Source of the DNA: Promethearchaeota archaeon
GTDB taxonomy: Archaea > Asgardarchaeota > Lokiarchaeia > Sigyniarchaeales > SOKP01
NCBI GenBank assembly: GCA_019894855.1
Contig: JAGXNS010000012.1
Span: 1-39,386 of the forward strand
Reading direction: 5' to 3'
Length of the DNA stretch: 39,386 bases
Below, one piece after another: positions 4,813 through 20,504 of this stretch. Position numbers and translations under genes: made by a program. The notes under the pieces were generated by a model, which did not search any database, had not been told where the DNA came from, and worked only from the letters and a program-made list of their open reading frames with translations. Numbering within the stretch: position 1 is the first letter of the stretch; each line of letters begins with the position of its first letter.

Positions 4813-4912
4813 CGCAGATAGAGGGACTCGAACCCTCGAGTGTTTTCACACACTGGCTTTCTGGTTAAGGTTACCACTCCAAGCCAGCGCCGTACCGCTT
4901 GGCTATATCTGC
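4813..4912 (-). tRNA. tRNA-Ser(GGA) with an 18-base anticodon-loop intron
   Basis: Read on the minus strand, a 7-bp acceptor stem (GCAGATA/TATCTGC) encloses a 3-bp D stem (GCC/GGC), an anticodon stem CTGGC/GCCAG, a long variable arm with the hairpin GTGT-GAAA-ACAC, and a T stem GAGGG/CCCTC with the loop TTCGAGT. The long variable arm plus G at position 73 indicate serine. The loop reads TT-GGA-G before an insert at the canonical 37/38 position, so the anticodon at 4878-4880 is GGA (decodes UCU/UCC). The intron, about 4859-4876, can fold with a TGGT/ACCA central helix, as expected for the archaeal splicing endonuclease. CCA is not encoded. Confidence 0.93.
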
Positions 4913-8105: not shown

Positions 8106-9176
8106 CTAAAAATGAATTTTATAGAAGTTGTTAAACTTAACAATTTCATAATCTTTTTTAGTAAATCGTTTAGTTAACTCTAAATTCGTTTTTGTATGAT
8201 TAGTTAATTCTGATACTTTTATACATGATTTTTCTTCTATATATGCCATTAAGGGAATTAATTGATCGCTAAGGTAATTATCTATAGGAATTTCATTTTG
8301 TATAGAAGAGATTATTTTTTGAGCTGTTATGTTACCAAGCTTCTCAGATGAGGTTTTTTTATCCCCTAAAATCGTACCTGTTGAAATTATTCCCCCCTTG
8401 TCTGATTGAGCCCACAGAGTCACTCCTACGCCAGGACTAATTGAATCTACCCATGTGAATTTGATGTCTGTTTCAACATTTAAGTCTCTTTTTAACCTCT
8501 GTTGAATAGTTTTTCTAATTCTAATTCCAATGTTGGCTCGATTCCTCCTTAATTGATTTGTTATAATTATATCGCCATGGATTCTTTCAACATTACCCAA
8601 TTCTGTTAAATTTATTGGATTCAAGGTTTTTTGGGGAGGATAAATATAACAATTTACTTGTGCTCCTCCTTTTGGATAGAATCCATGTTTTAGGATGTCA
8701 ATCTTGAATTTTAATCCTGATGCTTCAAAAATTTTATACGTAACTGCTTTAAGATAATTTAAACCAGGCGCCCATTTGCCAAATGTGCCACCACCCCGAA
8801 TTTTTATCTCAATTTTTTCGGGTTTTTTGAACCCTAAACATGCAATTTGAATTGGTTGTAATAACAAACCAATACTCGCTGCTGTATTAATATTTAAGCT
8901 TATGTTACTCTTTATTTCGTTTTTAATATTAGGTATAAAAGTAATTTCTTCGGTTCCAACATGGCAATTGCTTAATTTGCTATTGGTTAGATCAGCAAGC
9001 GTTTTAAGACCGAGAAGGTGTTGTAGCCTTAAACCCGGATTTGGTCTGTTAGCACGAATATTTTTTATTATTATAGGTTTTTTAAATAAAAAAGAATAAG
9101 CTACGCTAAGGCGTAAAATAGCTCCACCTCCTTCTCCCAGAGAACCGTCGATCTCTAAATAATTCTTATTACTCAA
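8106..9176 (-). CDS. rtcA: RNA 3'-terminal phosphate cyclase
   Basis: The 356-residue protein has the RtcA hallmarks: EIDGSLGEGGGAILRLSVA at residues 8-26, RPNPGLRLQHL (about 44-54), RGGGTFGKWAPG (about 127-138) and GFYPKGGAQV (about 165-174). Near the C-terminus, NHTKTNLELTKRF has the HxxTN pattern around the catalytic histidine (about His327) that is adenylylated. RtcA converts RNA 3'-phosphate ends to 2',3'-cyclic phosphates, consuming ATP and releasing AMP. The start is TTG; its first bases overlap the TGA of the preceding Nudix-NMNAT gene (TTGA), indicating translational coupling. No RtcB ligase lies in the window. Confidence 0.95.
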   Translation of the reverse strand: MSNKNYLEIDGSLGEGGGAILRLSVAYSFLFKKPIIIKNIRANRPNPGLRLQHLLGLKTLADLTNSKLSNCHVGTEEITFIPNIKNEIKSNISLNINTAASIGLLLQPIQIACLGFKKPEKIEIKIRGGGTFGKWAPGLNYLKAVTYKIFEASGLKFKIDILKHGFYPKGGAQVNCYIYPPQKTLNPINLTELGNVERIHGDIIITNQLRRNRANIGIRIRKTIQQRLKRDLNVETDIKFTWVDSISPGVGVTLWAQSDKGGIISTGTILGDKKTSSEKLGNITAQKIISSIQNEIPIDNYLSDQLIPLMAYIEEKSCIKVSELTNHTKTNLELTKRFTKKDYEIVKFNNFYKIHF

Positions 9177-13588: not shown

Positions 13589-14272
13589 TTACTTATCTAA
13601 GTTAGTACTAATTAAATTCAGGACCCATTTCTTGATTTGAACTAAGTTTTTGAGCAACCCAGCAACAGAGTTATCTGGAAATGGTTTTTCTTGATCGAAT
13701 GTTTGAACGGTGCTCATCCATTTGTTTAGGGCTAACTGAACCAAACTTGCTCCTTCTGCTTCCATGAACATTGGTACGACAGCAGCACTCTCCCTGGCAT
13801 CGCCGATTGCGAAATAGACTTTTCGGTTAATATCTTTTAAAACTACGAAATTTGAACACTCGTCCAGTTTTCGCTCTACTAAAATTGTTTTAAGGAGATC
13901 AGTTTTCATTGCACCATCTTTAGAAGCGAATTTGGTTTTTCTCGTTTTTAGTATTGGGTGTATTTCGGTATTCAATTTATCTCCAGTGCTTCCTTTAGGG
14001 AAATATTTAGTAATTCTTAAGGTATTCTCAAGAGCTTCTATAATTATAAATTTCTTGGTATTAGAATATAACACCGCTTGAGAACCGCTCCTATTCTCGG
14101 AAGGAATAAGCTTTATTAGAATAGTTCTCATTGCTACAGAATTACATGTGTGATACGCCAATTCAAAAAGTTCTCGTTGTGTCAAATTATCGTAGCTCAC
14201 CTCAATTTGCGTAGAAGGCCACTGAGCGGTTATAACAGTATTAAACTGATTTAGAAGACTAATAATAATCAA
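13589..14272 (-). CDS. Conserved-looking hypothetical protein next to SepSecS
   Basis: I do not recognise this 227-residue protein. It appears soluble and mixed alpha/beta; a central segment (about 60-160) alternates strands such as KKFIIIEALENTLRITKYF and NFVVLKDINRKVYFAIGDA, and the C-terminal 50 residues are helical. The start is TTG at 14272; no ATG occurs in the first 45 residues and AAGGG lies just upstream, closer than usual. It follows SepSecS by 92 bases on the same strand, so it could be part of the tRNA-Sec-SepSecS transcript, but nothing in it ties it to selenocysteine chemistry. Confidence 0.7.
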   Translation of the reverse strand: MIIISLLNQFNTVITAQWPSTQIEVSYDNLTQRELFELAYHTCNSVAMRTILIKLIPSENRSGSQAVLYSNTKKFIIIEALENTLRITKYFPKGSTGDKLNTEIHPILKTRKTKFASKDGAMKTDLLKTILVERKLDECSNFVVLKDINRKVYFAIGDARESAAVVPMFMEAEGASLVQLALNKWMSTVQTFDQEKPFPDNSVAGLLKNLVQIKKWVLNLISTNLDK

Positions 14273-14364: not shown

Positions 14365-15738
14365 TCAGGATTTTATTTGATTGTAAGCTTTTTCGAATCT
14401 CTCTACAGCTGAAATAATATCGTTAGAGTTAACTCCTATTGCTGCGTTTAAAACTATATAAGGCGTGGTAAAATCTTCACAACAAGTGCCAAAAATCTTT
14501 TCCTTGGGGTTATATACTCGCGGTCCGGTAACTCTTAAATTATAGAGAGCTCCCCCGAGCGCGTATAGTTGTTCTTTCTTTAAATTATTTAAAGACATAG
14601 CGACAGCTACAGGATTGAAAACGTCAAAAATTTTTTCGTTATTTTTTTCAGCAACGATTTTTAATTTCTCTTCTAATAACTTTCGATTTTGTTGTTGCTC
14701 GTCTAATAATTGTTGATAACCCTCGACGCCTAAAGATAACATTGAAATGAGAAAGTTCACAATTGGAGTCGCAGAGGCTCGACCAGCGTATGCTTGGCTT
14801 ATCTTGGTTATGACCTCTTCTGATGGAGATGTTATAACAGCGCCACCGATAGGTGTCAGGAAATTCTTATCTGTTGATTGAATAATTGCGTCTATTCGAC
14901 CGGCATCGAGACCAATTCGGATTAAGTTCATCCACTCCGGGCTCTGTACGCCGTAAGCATTGATGACAATATGAACTAAATCATGTTCTTTGGCAAATTT
15001 ACTAATCTCTTTTATGTTATCGTGTTCTCGAGGAGGGAAAAAACTCGTTAATGAGAGCACGGCAAAGCAGTCGTCGTCCAAACTGGCTTTAATGTCCTCA
15101 ATTGGGATTCTCACAGCATCTCCAAACTTTTTTCCTTTCACAATTTTCATTTTAGCACCAATTAGAGTAAATGCTTTGATAAGTGCGTTGTGATCAACCT
15201 GTGGCACGATAACAGTTCTTTTGTTGAGCAGTTTTTCATTATCCCAATCCGGACGGAGAGCTCCTAAACATAACGATAATGACATACCCGTACACAGAGG
15301 AACCACTATAGCCTTCTTAACATTTGGCAATCCAAATTTTTTTAGAAAATTAAGAGCTAAGTAATTACTAAGCTCGTACATTATTGATCCACCAGGAGCT
15401 TTAGGTTGTGGAGCTGTTAAGAAACCGCTTCGTCCTATACCATGACAGAACCCTGCCGAAGTTTTCAAATGTAAACTCGACGCGATTCGTGCTTCACGCT
15501 CTCCTACACGAGACGCTTTATCGTCTTTATCGGTGTCCATATTAGAAAGTGTTTGGAGGAGAAATTCGATTTGACTTTCGCTCCAAGGCTTTTGAGGGAC
15601 ATTTTTTTGTTCAAACAAGTTTTGGATAGGTTTCAAAAAATTATTCAAGACTAATTGACCTCTGTTTAACATATTTTGAGGAATCGGTGTACTCTTGAAA
15701 TAATCAATAATTTTACTAAAATCAACCACGATTATCAC
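14365..15738 (-). CDS. spcS: O-phosphoseryl-tRNA(Sec) selenium transferase (SepSecS)
   Basis: SepSecS is the PLP enzyme that turns phosphoserine on tRNA-Sec into selenocysteine, using selenophosphate. The 457-residue protein carries the family's phosphate-binding segment VGEREARIASSL (78-89), GRSGFLTAPQPKAPGGS (102-118), and the Schiff-base lysine in STDKNFLTPIGG (Lys291). Length and order match archaeal/eukaryotic SepSecS, not bacterial SelA. The start is GTG at 15738; a second GTG lies three codons later, and the family begins close to DFSKII. The tRNA-Sec gene ends only 24 bases upstream on the same strand, so tRNA and enzyme may share a transcript. PSTK, needed to make the phosphoserine, is not in the window. 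Confidence 0.97.
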   Translation of the reverse strand: MIIVVDFSKIIDYFKSTPIPQNMLNRGQLVLNNFLKPIQNLFEQKNVPQKPWSESQIEFLLQTLSNMDTDKDDKASRVGEREARIASSLHLKTSAGFCHGIGRSGFLTAPQPKAPGGSIMYELSNYLALNFLKKFGLPNVKKAIVVPLCTGMSLSLCLGALRPDWDNEKLLNKRTVIVPQVDHNALIKAFTLIGAKMKIVKGKKFGDAVRIPIEDIKASLDDDCFAVLSLTSFFPPREHDNIKEISKFAKEHDLVHIVINAYGVQSPEWMNLIRIGLDAGRIDAIIQSTDKNFLTPIGGAVITSPSEEVITKISQAYAGRASATPIVNFLISMLSLGVEGYQQLLDEQQQNRKLLEEKLKIVAEKNNEKIFDVFNPVAVAMSLNNLKKEQLYALGGALYNLRVTGPRVYNPKEKIFGTCCEDFTTPYIVLNAAIGVNSNDIISAVERFEKAYNQIKS

Positions 15739-15762: not shown

Positions 15763-15913
15763 TGGCGGCCCCCAGGGGGATTTTCTTGGAGAAAGGAAGC
15801 CTTTATCCGTATCGAACCCCTATCCCTCCGCAGGATAACTGGGTGTCTTCATTTATAACAATTGCAATGGTTTTGAAGCCCAGCGTCTGGGACCACCCCG
15901 ACCGCCGGGGGCC
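15763..15913 (-). tRNA. selC: tRNA-Sec(UCA) with two introns (anticodon loop and T loop)
   Basis: Read on the minus strand, this gene has all tRNA-Sec features: a 9-bp acceptor stem (GGCCCCCGG with CTGGGGGCC, one G-T pair), a 7-bp D stem with a four-base TGGT loop (GTCGGGG/CCCAGAC, one G-A mismatch), anticodon stem CTGGG/CCCAG, anticodon TCA at 15874-15876, a variable arm TATCC/GGATA, a 4-bp T stem GGGG/CCCC, G73 and an encoded CCA (15763-15765). Two inserts break it: about 28 bases at 15845-15872 (37/38 position), and about 30 bases inside the T loop within 15781-15811, which folds as GGA..AAAGG-CTT-CCTTT..TCC. Removing both leaves 90 bases with the 9+4 fold. Exact T-loop splice points are uncertain. 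Confidence 0.93.
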
Positions 15914-18859: not shown

Positions 18860-19070
18860 AAACCACTCACTTTTCGGTATGTATTAAAACAAGATATAAT
18901 AAAAAGATATTACATTTGTAATTAAATTTTATTGGAGTCCAATAATTAAAATCGATTCTAGCTTTAAAATTACAGATTTGTCTTTTAGTATTTTTTATAT
19001 TAAAAAATATTAACTTTAAATGACTATTAAATCACATCATAGATTTATTTGGTTTTTACTTGTTGTTCAT

Positions 19071-20504
19071 ATGCCAGAAATTGAGAAGAAAGTGCCTATT
19101 CACTTGGGTTTGTATGGGCACATAGATTCAGGAAAAACCGCCGTCGCTTCTGTGTTAAGCGAAATAATTTCAACTGCAGGAATTGATGCACATCCTCAGA
19201 GTAAAGAAAGGGGAATTACTATAGACCTGGGATTTACCAGTTTCATTTTAGATAATTATTTAATAACTTTAGTCGATGGACCAGGACACGCAGATCTAAT
19301 AAAGATATCCGCAGCTTCCGTAGAAATAATAGACTGTGCTTTATTAGTGATTGATATCAATAAAGGTCCTCAGATTCAAACTGGAGAACATCTTATTATG
19401 GTTGATTCACTCAACATAAAAGATGTTATCGTTGTACTAAATAAAACCGATCTGTTCAAGGGAAATATTGATAATGAAGTTGAAAAAATAAGAAATTTTT
19501 TTAAATCTACTTCTTTTGGCTCAGAAATACCTATTTATACCGTTTCAGCTAAAGAACAGAGTGGATTTGAGGATTTAAAGCGGGGAATATTAGAGAAAAT
19601 CAAGAAATTAAACATTAACAGGGACTATGAGGGTAGCGTAATTATCCCAATAGATCATCATTTTTCGATAAAGGGACGAGGAGCGATAATAACGGGGACA
19701 ATACTAAAAGGGAAATTGAATATTAATCAGAATTTAGATGTTATCCCAGTAAACACATCAGGTAGGGTGAAATCTATTCAAATTTTTCACCATGAAGTTG
19801 GATCTGCAAAAGCAGGAGATAGGGTTGGGATTAATTTAAAAGGCTTAGACATCAAAAAAGTATATCGCGGTTGTTATGCTACAAATAATAAAAATTCGTT
19901 CGAGTTGGGAGATTTAATTGAAATTCAAGTGAATCAGAATAACCTATTTAAACCTATTACCAAATTTGGAACCCAAGTTCATGTAACAGTAGGGATGTTT
20001 ACATTAACGGGATATCTGTTTCCTTATTATGAAGATAAACAAAAAAAGATTCAACTAGAGAGAACTGGAGATTTAAAAAAATACTATGCCTATCTATGGT
20101 TAACTGAGAAGATTTTCTTTAATAAAGATCGATCAACATTGTTAATTAGCAGATTTGACCTTCCACCAACAACTTTAAGGATACTTGGGGCTGCTGAATT
20201 GATTAAAATTCTCCATAAACCTCCTATTTTATACAAATACAAATTGAAAAAAGGATTCGTTCAAAATTCAGAACACCCCCAAGGGGTCGTTTGCCGTGGT
20301 TTAGCGCAAAGTATTGAGGGAGCAAAAAAATTAATAAGTCGAAAATTGGAACCCCCGTTTTCTAAAATTATTGATACATTTGGAACTAAAGGTTTAGTGA
20401 TCGTAACAATTGAAGATAAAAGCAAAACAGTAGAAAATGGGGACACAGTTACTCTAAAAGAATTAAGGAGTTTTACACTGAAATCTAAAAAAGATTTAAT
20501 TTAA
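19071..20504 (+). CDS. selB: Selenocysteine-specific elongation factor EFSec (SelB)
   Basis: EFSec is a GTPase that carries Sec-tRNA-Sec to UGA codons marked by a SECIS element. G1 is YGHIDSGKTA, the switch region KERGITIDLGF is the form diagnostic for SelB rather than EF1A (which has ERGVTIDxxH), then DGPGHADLI (G3), NKTD (G4) and SAK (G5). Domains 2 and 3 follow, then a short C-terminal domain IV with no winged helices, as in archaea and eukaryotes. I start at the ATG at 19071 (MPEIEKKVPIHLGLYGHID); an upstream ATG at 19020 would add a hydrophobic 17-residue tail. The Roadblock gene follows 40 bases later. Confidence 0.95.
   Translation: MPEIEKKVPIHLGLYGHIDSGKTAVASVLSEIISTAGIDAHPQSKERGITIDLGFTSFILDNYLITLVDGPGHADLIKISAASVEIIDCALLVIDINKGPQIQTGEHLIMVDSLNIKDVIVVLNKTDLFKGNIDNEVEKIRNFFKSTSFGSEIPIYTVSAKEQSGFEDLKRGILEKIKKLNINRDYEGSVIIPIDHHFSIKGRGAIITGTILKGKLNINQNLDVIPVNTSGRVKSIQIFHHEVGSAKAGDRVGINLKGLDIKKVYRGCYATNNKNSFELGDLIEIQVNQNNLFKPITKFGTQVHVTVGMFTLTGYLFPYYEDKQKKIQLERTGDLKKYYAYLWLTEKIFFNKDRSTLLISRFDLPPTTLRILGAAELIKILHKPPILYKYKLKKGFVQNSEHPQGVVCRGLAQSIEGAKKLISRKLEPPFSKIIDTFGTKGLVIVTIEDKSKTVENGDTVTLKELRSFTLKSKKDLI

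Follow-up and report, generated by a model that had tools for sequence, protein, structure and literature searches.

Introns of archaeal tRNAs are cut at a bulge-helix-bulge (BHB) motif, in which a 4-bp central helix pairs four exon bases with four intron bases and the bulges are 3 nt long. The motif is named in PMC8450103 and PMC12397907, the latter including relaxed forms at non-canonical introns. Non-canonical introns occur, among other places, in the D arm and at 59/60, a known archaeal tRNA intron site (PMC4090602), with up to three introns per tRNA (PMC4090602; PMC4033280; PMC8450103; PMC12397907). According to the same four papers, multi-intron archaeal tRNAs are linked to broad-specificity endonucleases, and intron gain through mobile elements has been proposed (PMC3293823). 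The tRNAs of Thermoproteales and other multi-intron cases resemble the gene described here in having several introns and non-canonical sites. However, the available text of these descriptions contains no tRNA-Sec with more than one intron, and the host here is an Asgard archaeon.

For tRNA-Sec, a 31-nt intron in the T arm of a Lokiarchaeal gene was reported by Mariotti et al. (2016), as cited in PMC5330540 and PMC9499178. The tRNA-Sec of Daphnia pulex has an anticodon-loop intron, as does the gene studied here, but it is eukaryotic, with introns of 25 and 16 nt at the canonical site only (PMC5330540). Among Asgard archaea, the Atabeyarchaeia and Freyarchaeia harbor introns in 92-95% of their tRNA genes, often at non-canonical positions and in over half of the cases several; a Sec tRNA is present. 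They thus share intron-rich tRNAs and selenocysteine use with our host, but the main text is silent on tRNA-Sec introns (PMC11291895). Unusual insertions and deletions were noted in some Lokiarchaeia tRNA-Sec in a study whose main text does not use the word intron (PMC9723677), and the word is likewise missing from the available text of a survey of more than 400 Asgard genomes (PMC11227280).

Here, we describe a tRNA-Sec gene interrupted by two inserts in a 39,386-nt stretch of a Lokiarchaeial genome (contig JAGXNS010000012.1 of assembly GCA_019894855.1), which we call the window. It shares with the case of Mariotti et al. the host group and a T-arm intron of about equal length, but only one intron was described there, whereas the window gene has a second at 37/38. 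Relatives of the gene add a site in the D stem, and genes of another Asgard family carry inserts in the D loop, anticodon loop, and T loop, compared with the single T-arm intron in the published record as cited. A first-pass annotation of the window had presented the T-loop intron as a rarity. The intron is present, but a Lokiarchaeal T-arm intron was published in 2016 and 59/60 is a known archaeal site; on the evidence of the citing papers, the T-arm intron in Lokiarchaeal tRNA-Sec is not new. What is added here is its pairing with a 37/38 intron, the third (D-arm) site, the three-intron genes in another Asgard family, and the dense record of turnover. In the main text available to us on archaeal and Lokiarchaeal tRNA-Sec introns, we came across no tRNA-Sec gene credited with two introns.

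The tRNA-Sec gene of the window and its relatives

The gene lies on the minus strand, from 15913 (5') to 15763 (3', encoded CCA), and consists of three exons (table 1). Once spliced, it is 93 nt long, and of the 32 pairs that make up the archaeal 9/4 cloverleaf, 31 can form. With both introns removed, all pairs of the 9-bp acceptor stem and of the 4-bp T stem are standard, the UCA anticodon and the discriminator G73 are present, and the long variable arm has six pairs (columns 49-54 with 60-65). The first-pass annotation had announced this 9+4 fold, anticodon, and encoded CCA, all of which are found in the spliced gene. It had also given the D stem 7 bp: there are indeed seven positions, closed by the loop TGGT, but pair 15-26 is G.A, hence six standard pairs. 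This G.A is shared by L004-L009, with A.A in L010 and in the intronless L067, and the literature regards a 7-bp D stem as usual but not universal in tRNA-Sec. In three other intronless genes (L036, L135, and L137), C and A face each other as a mismatch in the sixth pair of the acceptor stem (columns 6-84), which may correspond to the U6:U67 reported from eukaryotic and Bathyarchaeal tRNA-Sec.

Table 1. Positions of the tRNA-Sec gene parts and selenocysteine genes in the window, and of intron-bearing tRNA-Sec genes outside Lokiarchaeia
Feature	Position	Strand	Description
tRNA-Sec exon 1	15873..15913	-	41 nt; 5' acceptor strand, 7-position D stem, 4-nt loop, 5' anticodon arm
Anticodon TCA of tRNA-Sec exon 1	15876-15874	-	
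Intron 1	15845..15872	-	28 nt; anticodon loop, 37/38; boundary from L011 and L023, without insert at the same base
tRNA-Sec exon 2	15811..15844	-	34 nt; 3' anticodon arm, long variable arm, 5' T stem, T loop up to TTCGAT
Intron 2	15781..15810	-	30 nt; T loop, 59/60; boundary from L022 and L023, without insert at the same base
tRNA-Sec exon 3	15763..15780	-	18 nt; 3' T stem, 9-nt acceptor strand, G73, encoded CCA
SepSecS (O-phosphoseryl-tRNA(Sec) selenium transferase)	14365..15738	-	457 aa from GTG; TIGR03531, 480.3 bits (cut-off 224.85)
Putative selenocysteine system protein, NF045535 Sel_Asgard	13589..14272	-	227 aa; 215.4 bits (cut-off 132); next after SepSecS
EFsec/aSelB (selenocysteine-specific elongation factor)	19020..20504	+	494 aa; PF21440 aSelB_III, 38 bits (cut-off 19)
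Three-intron tRNA-Sec genes of family f19	L148:199-337; L149:172-314; L150 (143-nt gene, minus strand)		introns of 12-20 nt; helices 4/4 in 8 of 9; hand-placed boundaries
Bathyarchaeota-labelled tRNA-Sec	L236:3381-3493; L237:3372-3485		20- and 21-nt insert at the same T-loop base; 4/4 helix; just after SepSecS

With the gene as query, BLAST hit 63 of the 83 genomes in the class (its own among them). Of the 67 loci obtained, 62, from 60 genomes including that of the window, are complete. Five loci whose contigs end inside the gene (L019, L020, L051, L052, and L063) were left out of the intron counts. Introns are present in 42 of the complete loci and absent from 20, and all intron-bearing genes are interrupted at the same three points: in the D stem after nucleotide 17 of the mature tRNA (D), in the anticodon loop after nucleotide 41 (37/38; C), and in the T loop after nucleotide 75 (59/60; T). 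The combinations are D+T (21 loci), none (20), C+T, the type of the window (9), D only (9), C only (2), and T only (1). Where a gene lacks one of the introns, its exons run on uninterrupted, so that homology sets the boundaries. The inserts, which the first-pass annotation had put at about 28 bases at the standard anticodon-loop site and about 30 in the T loop, could thereby be placed to the exact base; an alignment of related Asgard loci was among the checks that the annotation had suggested.

The clade of the window comprises eight genomes, all with the same two introns at the same bases. Their exons are 98.4% identical, with 6 of 93 columns variable, against 79% for the T intron and 65% for the 37/38 intron (in 21 of 28 pairs, those of equal length). 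Locus L172, from bin41, has a tRNA-Sec sequence equal to that of L005. Since bin41 is reported, in the text available to us, to have 19 selenoprotein genes, the most known in archaea (PMC13188914), this ties a two-intron tRNA-Sec to that archaeon. In genome G043, two different tRNA-Sec genes, both with a D intron, are found on one contig (L109 and L110), and behind L110 the SepSecS match covers no more than about 87 residues of the N-terminal part, as if a block had been duplicated.

Pairing and covariation of the introns

RNAfold gave the same cloverleaf for the unspliced gene, with both inserts as side hairpins (-60.5 kcal/mol). As the first-pass annotation had stated, the T-loop insert folds on its own as a stem ending in CTT, namely the hairpin GGATAAAGG-CTT-CCTTTCTCC, with CTT as the loop and one T.C mismatch. 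At 37/38, the BHB has a complete central helix, CTTC/GAAG (4/4 pairs), with bulges AA|A and AC|A, whereas the central helix of intron 2, TTCG/AGAA, forms three of four pairs. Of the two junctions at which the first-pass annotation wanted BHB folding checked, the first thus has its full central helix and the second three of four pairs, in the window as in the rest of its clade.

Over distinct exon/intron pairs of the class, the central helix is complete in 20 of 24 cases at the D site, 10 of 10 at 37/38, and 13 of 29 at the T site, where at least three of the four pairs form in all 29. Shuffled introns reach 4/4 in 2.6%, 0.6%, and 2.5% of cases at the D, 37/38, and T sites, respectively, and introns swapped in from other sites in 0%. 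A score of 3/4 at the T site is less telling, being reached by 21% of shuffled and 58.5% of other-site introns; when the register is shifted, up to 17 of 31 T and 21 of 30 D introns still attain it. In 13 of 21 aligned T introns, the fourth pair is non-standard. A blind scan of the window gene by pairing ranked the true junctions 148 and 388 (counted from 0) among 4755 placements; finding the junctions from pairing alone in the window sequence thus failed, and it is the comparison with relatives alone that fixes them.

For the hairpins inside the introns, the counts were restricted to 30-nt introns, with 21 distinct sequences at the T site and 8 at the D site. In the T introns, all nine pairs show changes on both sides and 90.8% of cells pair. 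Their covariation of 0.463 exceeds that of slid structures (at most 0.193) and was reached by none of 500 shuffles; two other measures do not stand out, namely how many pairs changed on both sides (38 of 500 shuffles reach it) and how many extra pair types occur (365 of 500). In the D introns, both-sided changes are seen at seven of nine pairs, 93.3% of cells pair, and the covariation is 0.497, against at most 0.176 for slid structures. For the 37/38 intron, L003-L006 and L010 have a weak outer hairpin. We also considered the T-loop intron as an inserted mobile element and rejected this: at 30 nt, it is too short to code for one.

The relaxed central helix of the T intron in the clade of the window leaves room for a mature tRNA in which only the anticodon-loop insert is spliced and the T-loop insert stays behind, enlarging the T loop. 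As folded before splicing, the gene would let the hairpin cap the T arm with the other stems unbroken. However, 31 of the 62 loci lack the insert and have TTCGAT|T intact; one of them, L022, has flanks almost identical to those of the intron-bearing L037. In addition, a TTCG/CGAA helix is formed at the same site in seven of eight genes of the families f19, f20, and f26, and the published Lokiarchaeal case is termed an intron by its authors, as cited (PMC5330540; PMC9499178). We consider retention of the T-loop insert very improbable.

Detection of the gene and the selenocysteine apparatus

Whether a genome can read UGA as selenocysteine is determined by its tRNA-Sec. A covariance model, R1, was built from 20 intronless relatives (alignment A2), the window being left out. 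An earlier MAFFT alignment of 35 whole unspliced genes (A1) was dropped because it wrongly aligned exon 1 in genes with a D intron, and because the 3' parts of genes lacking a T intron did not line up with those of genes having one. The structure of R1 is backed by covariation, with 98.1% of cells paired, 17 pairs changed on both sides, and a score reached by none of 500 shuffles. In a search of 227 genomes of the phylum, R1 matched the unspliced window gene from end to end (positions 1-93) with 81.1 bits (E = 1.6e-14); the next match listed in the same genome, at 33.3 bits, is a tRNA-Leu by ARAGORN. With filters off, the R1 score for a 281-base stretch was no more than 40.9 bits, confined to positions 10-80 and with a wrongly closed T stem. 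On 281 bases, at relaxed thresholds, the Rfam tRNA-Sec model (RF01852) scored 13.4 bits, below its gathering score of 47. A match to Rfam RUF6-5 at the locus (14.3 bits against 70) was dismissed as chance, and two weak Rfam tRNA-Sec matches in the same genome are tRNA-Leu by ARAGORN.

ARAGORN at default settings reported no tRNA in the window, and Rfam at gathering thresholds solely an ordinary tRNA at 4813-4912. When both inserts were removed by script, ARAGORN returned a tRNA-SeC(TCA) of 93 bases; with neither or just one removed, it returned nothing, even with introns of 0-60 nt allowed. With ARAGORN, a complete tRNA-Sec thus appears only once the two inserts are taken out, as the first-pass annotation had said of the fold. 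Across the 62 complete loci, ARAGORN run with no intron option recovered all 20 intronless genes and a single one of the 42 with introns, that one with wrong ends; Rfam at its gathering score recovered 8 of 8 and 0 of 10, respectively (18 loci tested). Because both lose the intron-bearing gene, calls of absence for Asgard genomes made with them are unsafe. The suggestion that such genes are invisible to standard finders holds for these two tools but may not extend to Secmarker and tRNAscan-SE 2.0, which search differently: Secmarker detected the first Lokiarchaeal intron-bearing tRNA-Sec, according to the papers citing it, and tRNAscan-SE 2.0 is described as searching iteratively for non-canonical introns (PMC8450103). 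Likewise, selenocysteine could be overlooked in relatives by the two tools, but a published survey already assigns its use to 85.9% of Lokiarchaeia/Helarchaeales, according to the text available (PMC11227280). The ordinary tRNA at 4813-4912 (minus strand, 100 nt) has an anticodon-loop intron of its own; it is a tRNA-Ser(GGA) by ARAGORN with introns allowed and is missed at default settings.

The gene lies in a selenocysteine neighborhood (table 1). SepSecS starts 24 nt downstream of it, and a SepSecS match is present in 60 of the 67 class-level stretches, two of them matches of just 87 and 50 residues; none was found in seven further stretches of family f3. The window EFsec scores 237.1 bits against TIGR00475 (selB), just below the cut-off of 242.25, and a PSTK-like gene elsewhere in the genome scores 167 bits, below its cut-off of 290.5. 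Two adjacent SelD genes (L161 and L162, contig C117 of the same genome) each contain one in-frame TGA at G-U-S/N-C-K. A FlpD frame has two TGA, and an HdrA-like frame beside it, named from its motif, has TGA after TDDCSI. With genes for selenocysteine synthesis and insertion and TGA-containing genes in one genome, UGA decoding is expected, as judged from gene content.

The genome also encodes two paralogues of the PF01974 splicing endonuclease. In an alignment, the one closest to the 3p1z/3ajv chains keeps a histidine, which we take to be catalytic, where the other, closest to 1a79, has a serine. This suggests that the two may act as catalytic and structural subunits. An RtcB is present (564 bits). 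An RNA 3'-terminal phosphate cyclase gene is located about 6.6 kb from the tRNA-Sec, at 8106-9176 of the window (minus strand; PF01137, 204.4 bits).

The gene structure, the exon boundaries, the conserved pairing of the introns, the enzyme genes, and the TGA-containing selenoprotein genes are established. Judged on these sequence features, the gene is a real and very probably functional two-intron tRNA-Sec, and we infer its transcription, cutting, ligation, and charging. The transcript would fold with both introns looped out as hairpins. The two-subunit archaeal tRNA-splicing endonuclease would then cut the canonical BHB at 37/38 and the relaxed one at 59/60 in the T loop, and RtcB would ligate the exons into the 93-nt tRNA. 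This tRNA would be serylated, phosphorylated, and turned into Sec-tRNA by SepSecS, which EFsec would bring to UGA. We hold with high confidence that the gene works in this manner, both introns being spliced by the endonuclease and RtcB and the Sec-tRNA being made and delivered to UGA.

That the gene is a pseudogene or a copy in decay, and that the genuine tRNA-Sec is encoded elsewhere or was not assembled, is very improbable. The genome is 84% complete in 170 contigs, which leaves room for another tRNA-Sec, the D stem has its G.A mismatch, and a few relatives have two copies or two fragments. On the other side, neither BLAST nor R1 found a second tRNA-Sec in this genome, let alone the better one that the first-pass annotation had named as a refutation; the arrangement is the same in all eight genomes of the clade, with the few variable exon columns noted above; and the gene adjoins SepSecS in a genome with TGA-containing selenoprotein genes. 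The chance that a mixed-strain metagenome assembly joined unrelated sequence into the tRNA gene is negligible: such genes do break assemblies, as contigs end inside tRNA-Sec in G020, G040, and G068, but the two introns sit at the same bases in the eight clade genomes, seven of them matched to records of different isolates, and the T-intron hairpin covaries.

Introns in other families and intron turnover in Lokiarchaeia

Outside the Lokiarchaeia (family f1), the phylum-wide R1 search of 227 genomes used stricter filters, so that absences mean little. Judged by match length, there is no room for an intron in any of the 37 f28 genes (47 genomes; 91-92 nt) or of the seven f3 genes (eight genomes; 91-93 nt), nor in three of four in f4, the one of f5, and one of two in f7. 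Among these short-match families, the genes read were three of f28, two plus five of f3, three of f4, the f5 gene, and one of f7. Inserts were found in ten genomes, at 37/38 in one f7 and one f4, in the T loop in three f26, in both the D loop and the T loop in two f20, and in the D loop, at 37/38, and in the T loop in three f19. A complete central helix is formed by 17 of these 18 introns, the exception being one T site with 3/4; their boundaries were placed by hand without intronless relatives of the same family, and the pairing is partly by construction. The three-intron f19 genes could come from lineages such as the Atabeyarchaeia or Freyarchaeia.

From a wider contig set, 41 of 80 loci were taken into the tRNA-Sec search. 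Two of four Bathyarchaeota-labelled contigs gave a tRNA-Sec match (L236 and L237); the remaining fold suits our model poorly (23 of 32 pairs).

Within the Lokiarchaeia, intron states were mapped on a SepSecS tree of 58 rows, from which matches shorter than 260 residues had been dropped. The tree was computed quickly, 17 of its 55 inner branches are open, and it is unrooted for this purpose. It requires at least 11 changes for the D intron (scored on 56 rows, two having no D state to score), 3 for C, and 13 for T. The eight C+T genomes of the window form one clade (SH-aLRT 98), sister to five D+T genomes. On this unrooted tree, it is therefore probable that the C intron was gained and the D intron lost in the clade of the window.

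Three sister pairs, L023/L106, L031/L032, and L030/L116, differ in D and T at once. Exon columns 14, 68, and 78 then differ as well, joined by one or two others in two of the three pairs, and so do the 45 bases upstream. By eye, the upstream sequences of D+T genes are alike, as are those of the intronless L030 and L031, with no clear fit for L023. Downstream, the sequence is close in L023/L044 and L030/L053 and less so in L031/L032. In these last three pairs, as in L022/L037, differences in introns coincide with differences at the same few exon positions; the three pairs differ upstream as well. The comparison points to a possible replacement of promoter-plus-tRNA alleles rather than to losses of introns only.

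Tentatively, and with low confidence, we propose that the 59/60 intron is old in archaeal tRNA-Sec, predating the divergence of the Asgard lineages (and perhaps of Bathyarchaeota), and was lost many times; that 37/38 and D-arm introns turn over; and that in Lokiarchaeia turnover took place largely by recombination that swaps whole promoter-plus-tRNA alleles, and less by gains or losses of the introns alone. Related species with zero, one, two, or (elsewhere) three introns in one tRNA gene provide a dense natural series for testing intron gain and loss. The wider contig set also contains a Lokiarchaeal SepSecS with a D+T intron tRNA-Sec (L207:1806-1962) on a contig filed under Chlamydiae bacterium SM23_39, which is probably misbinned.
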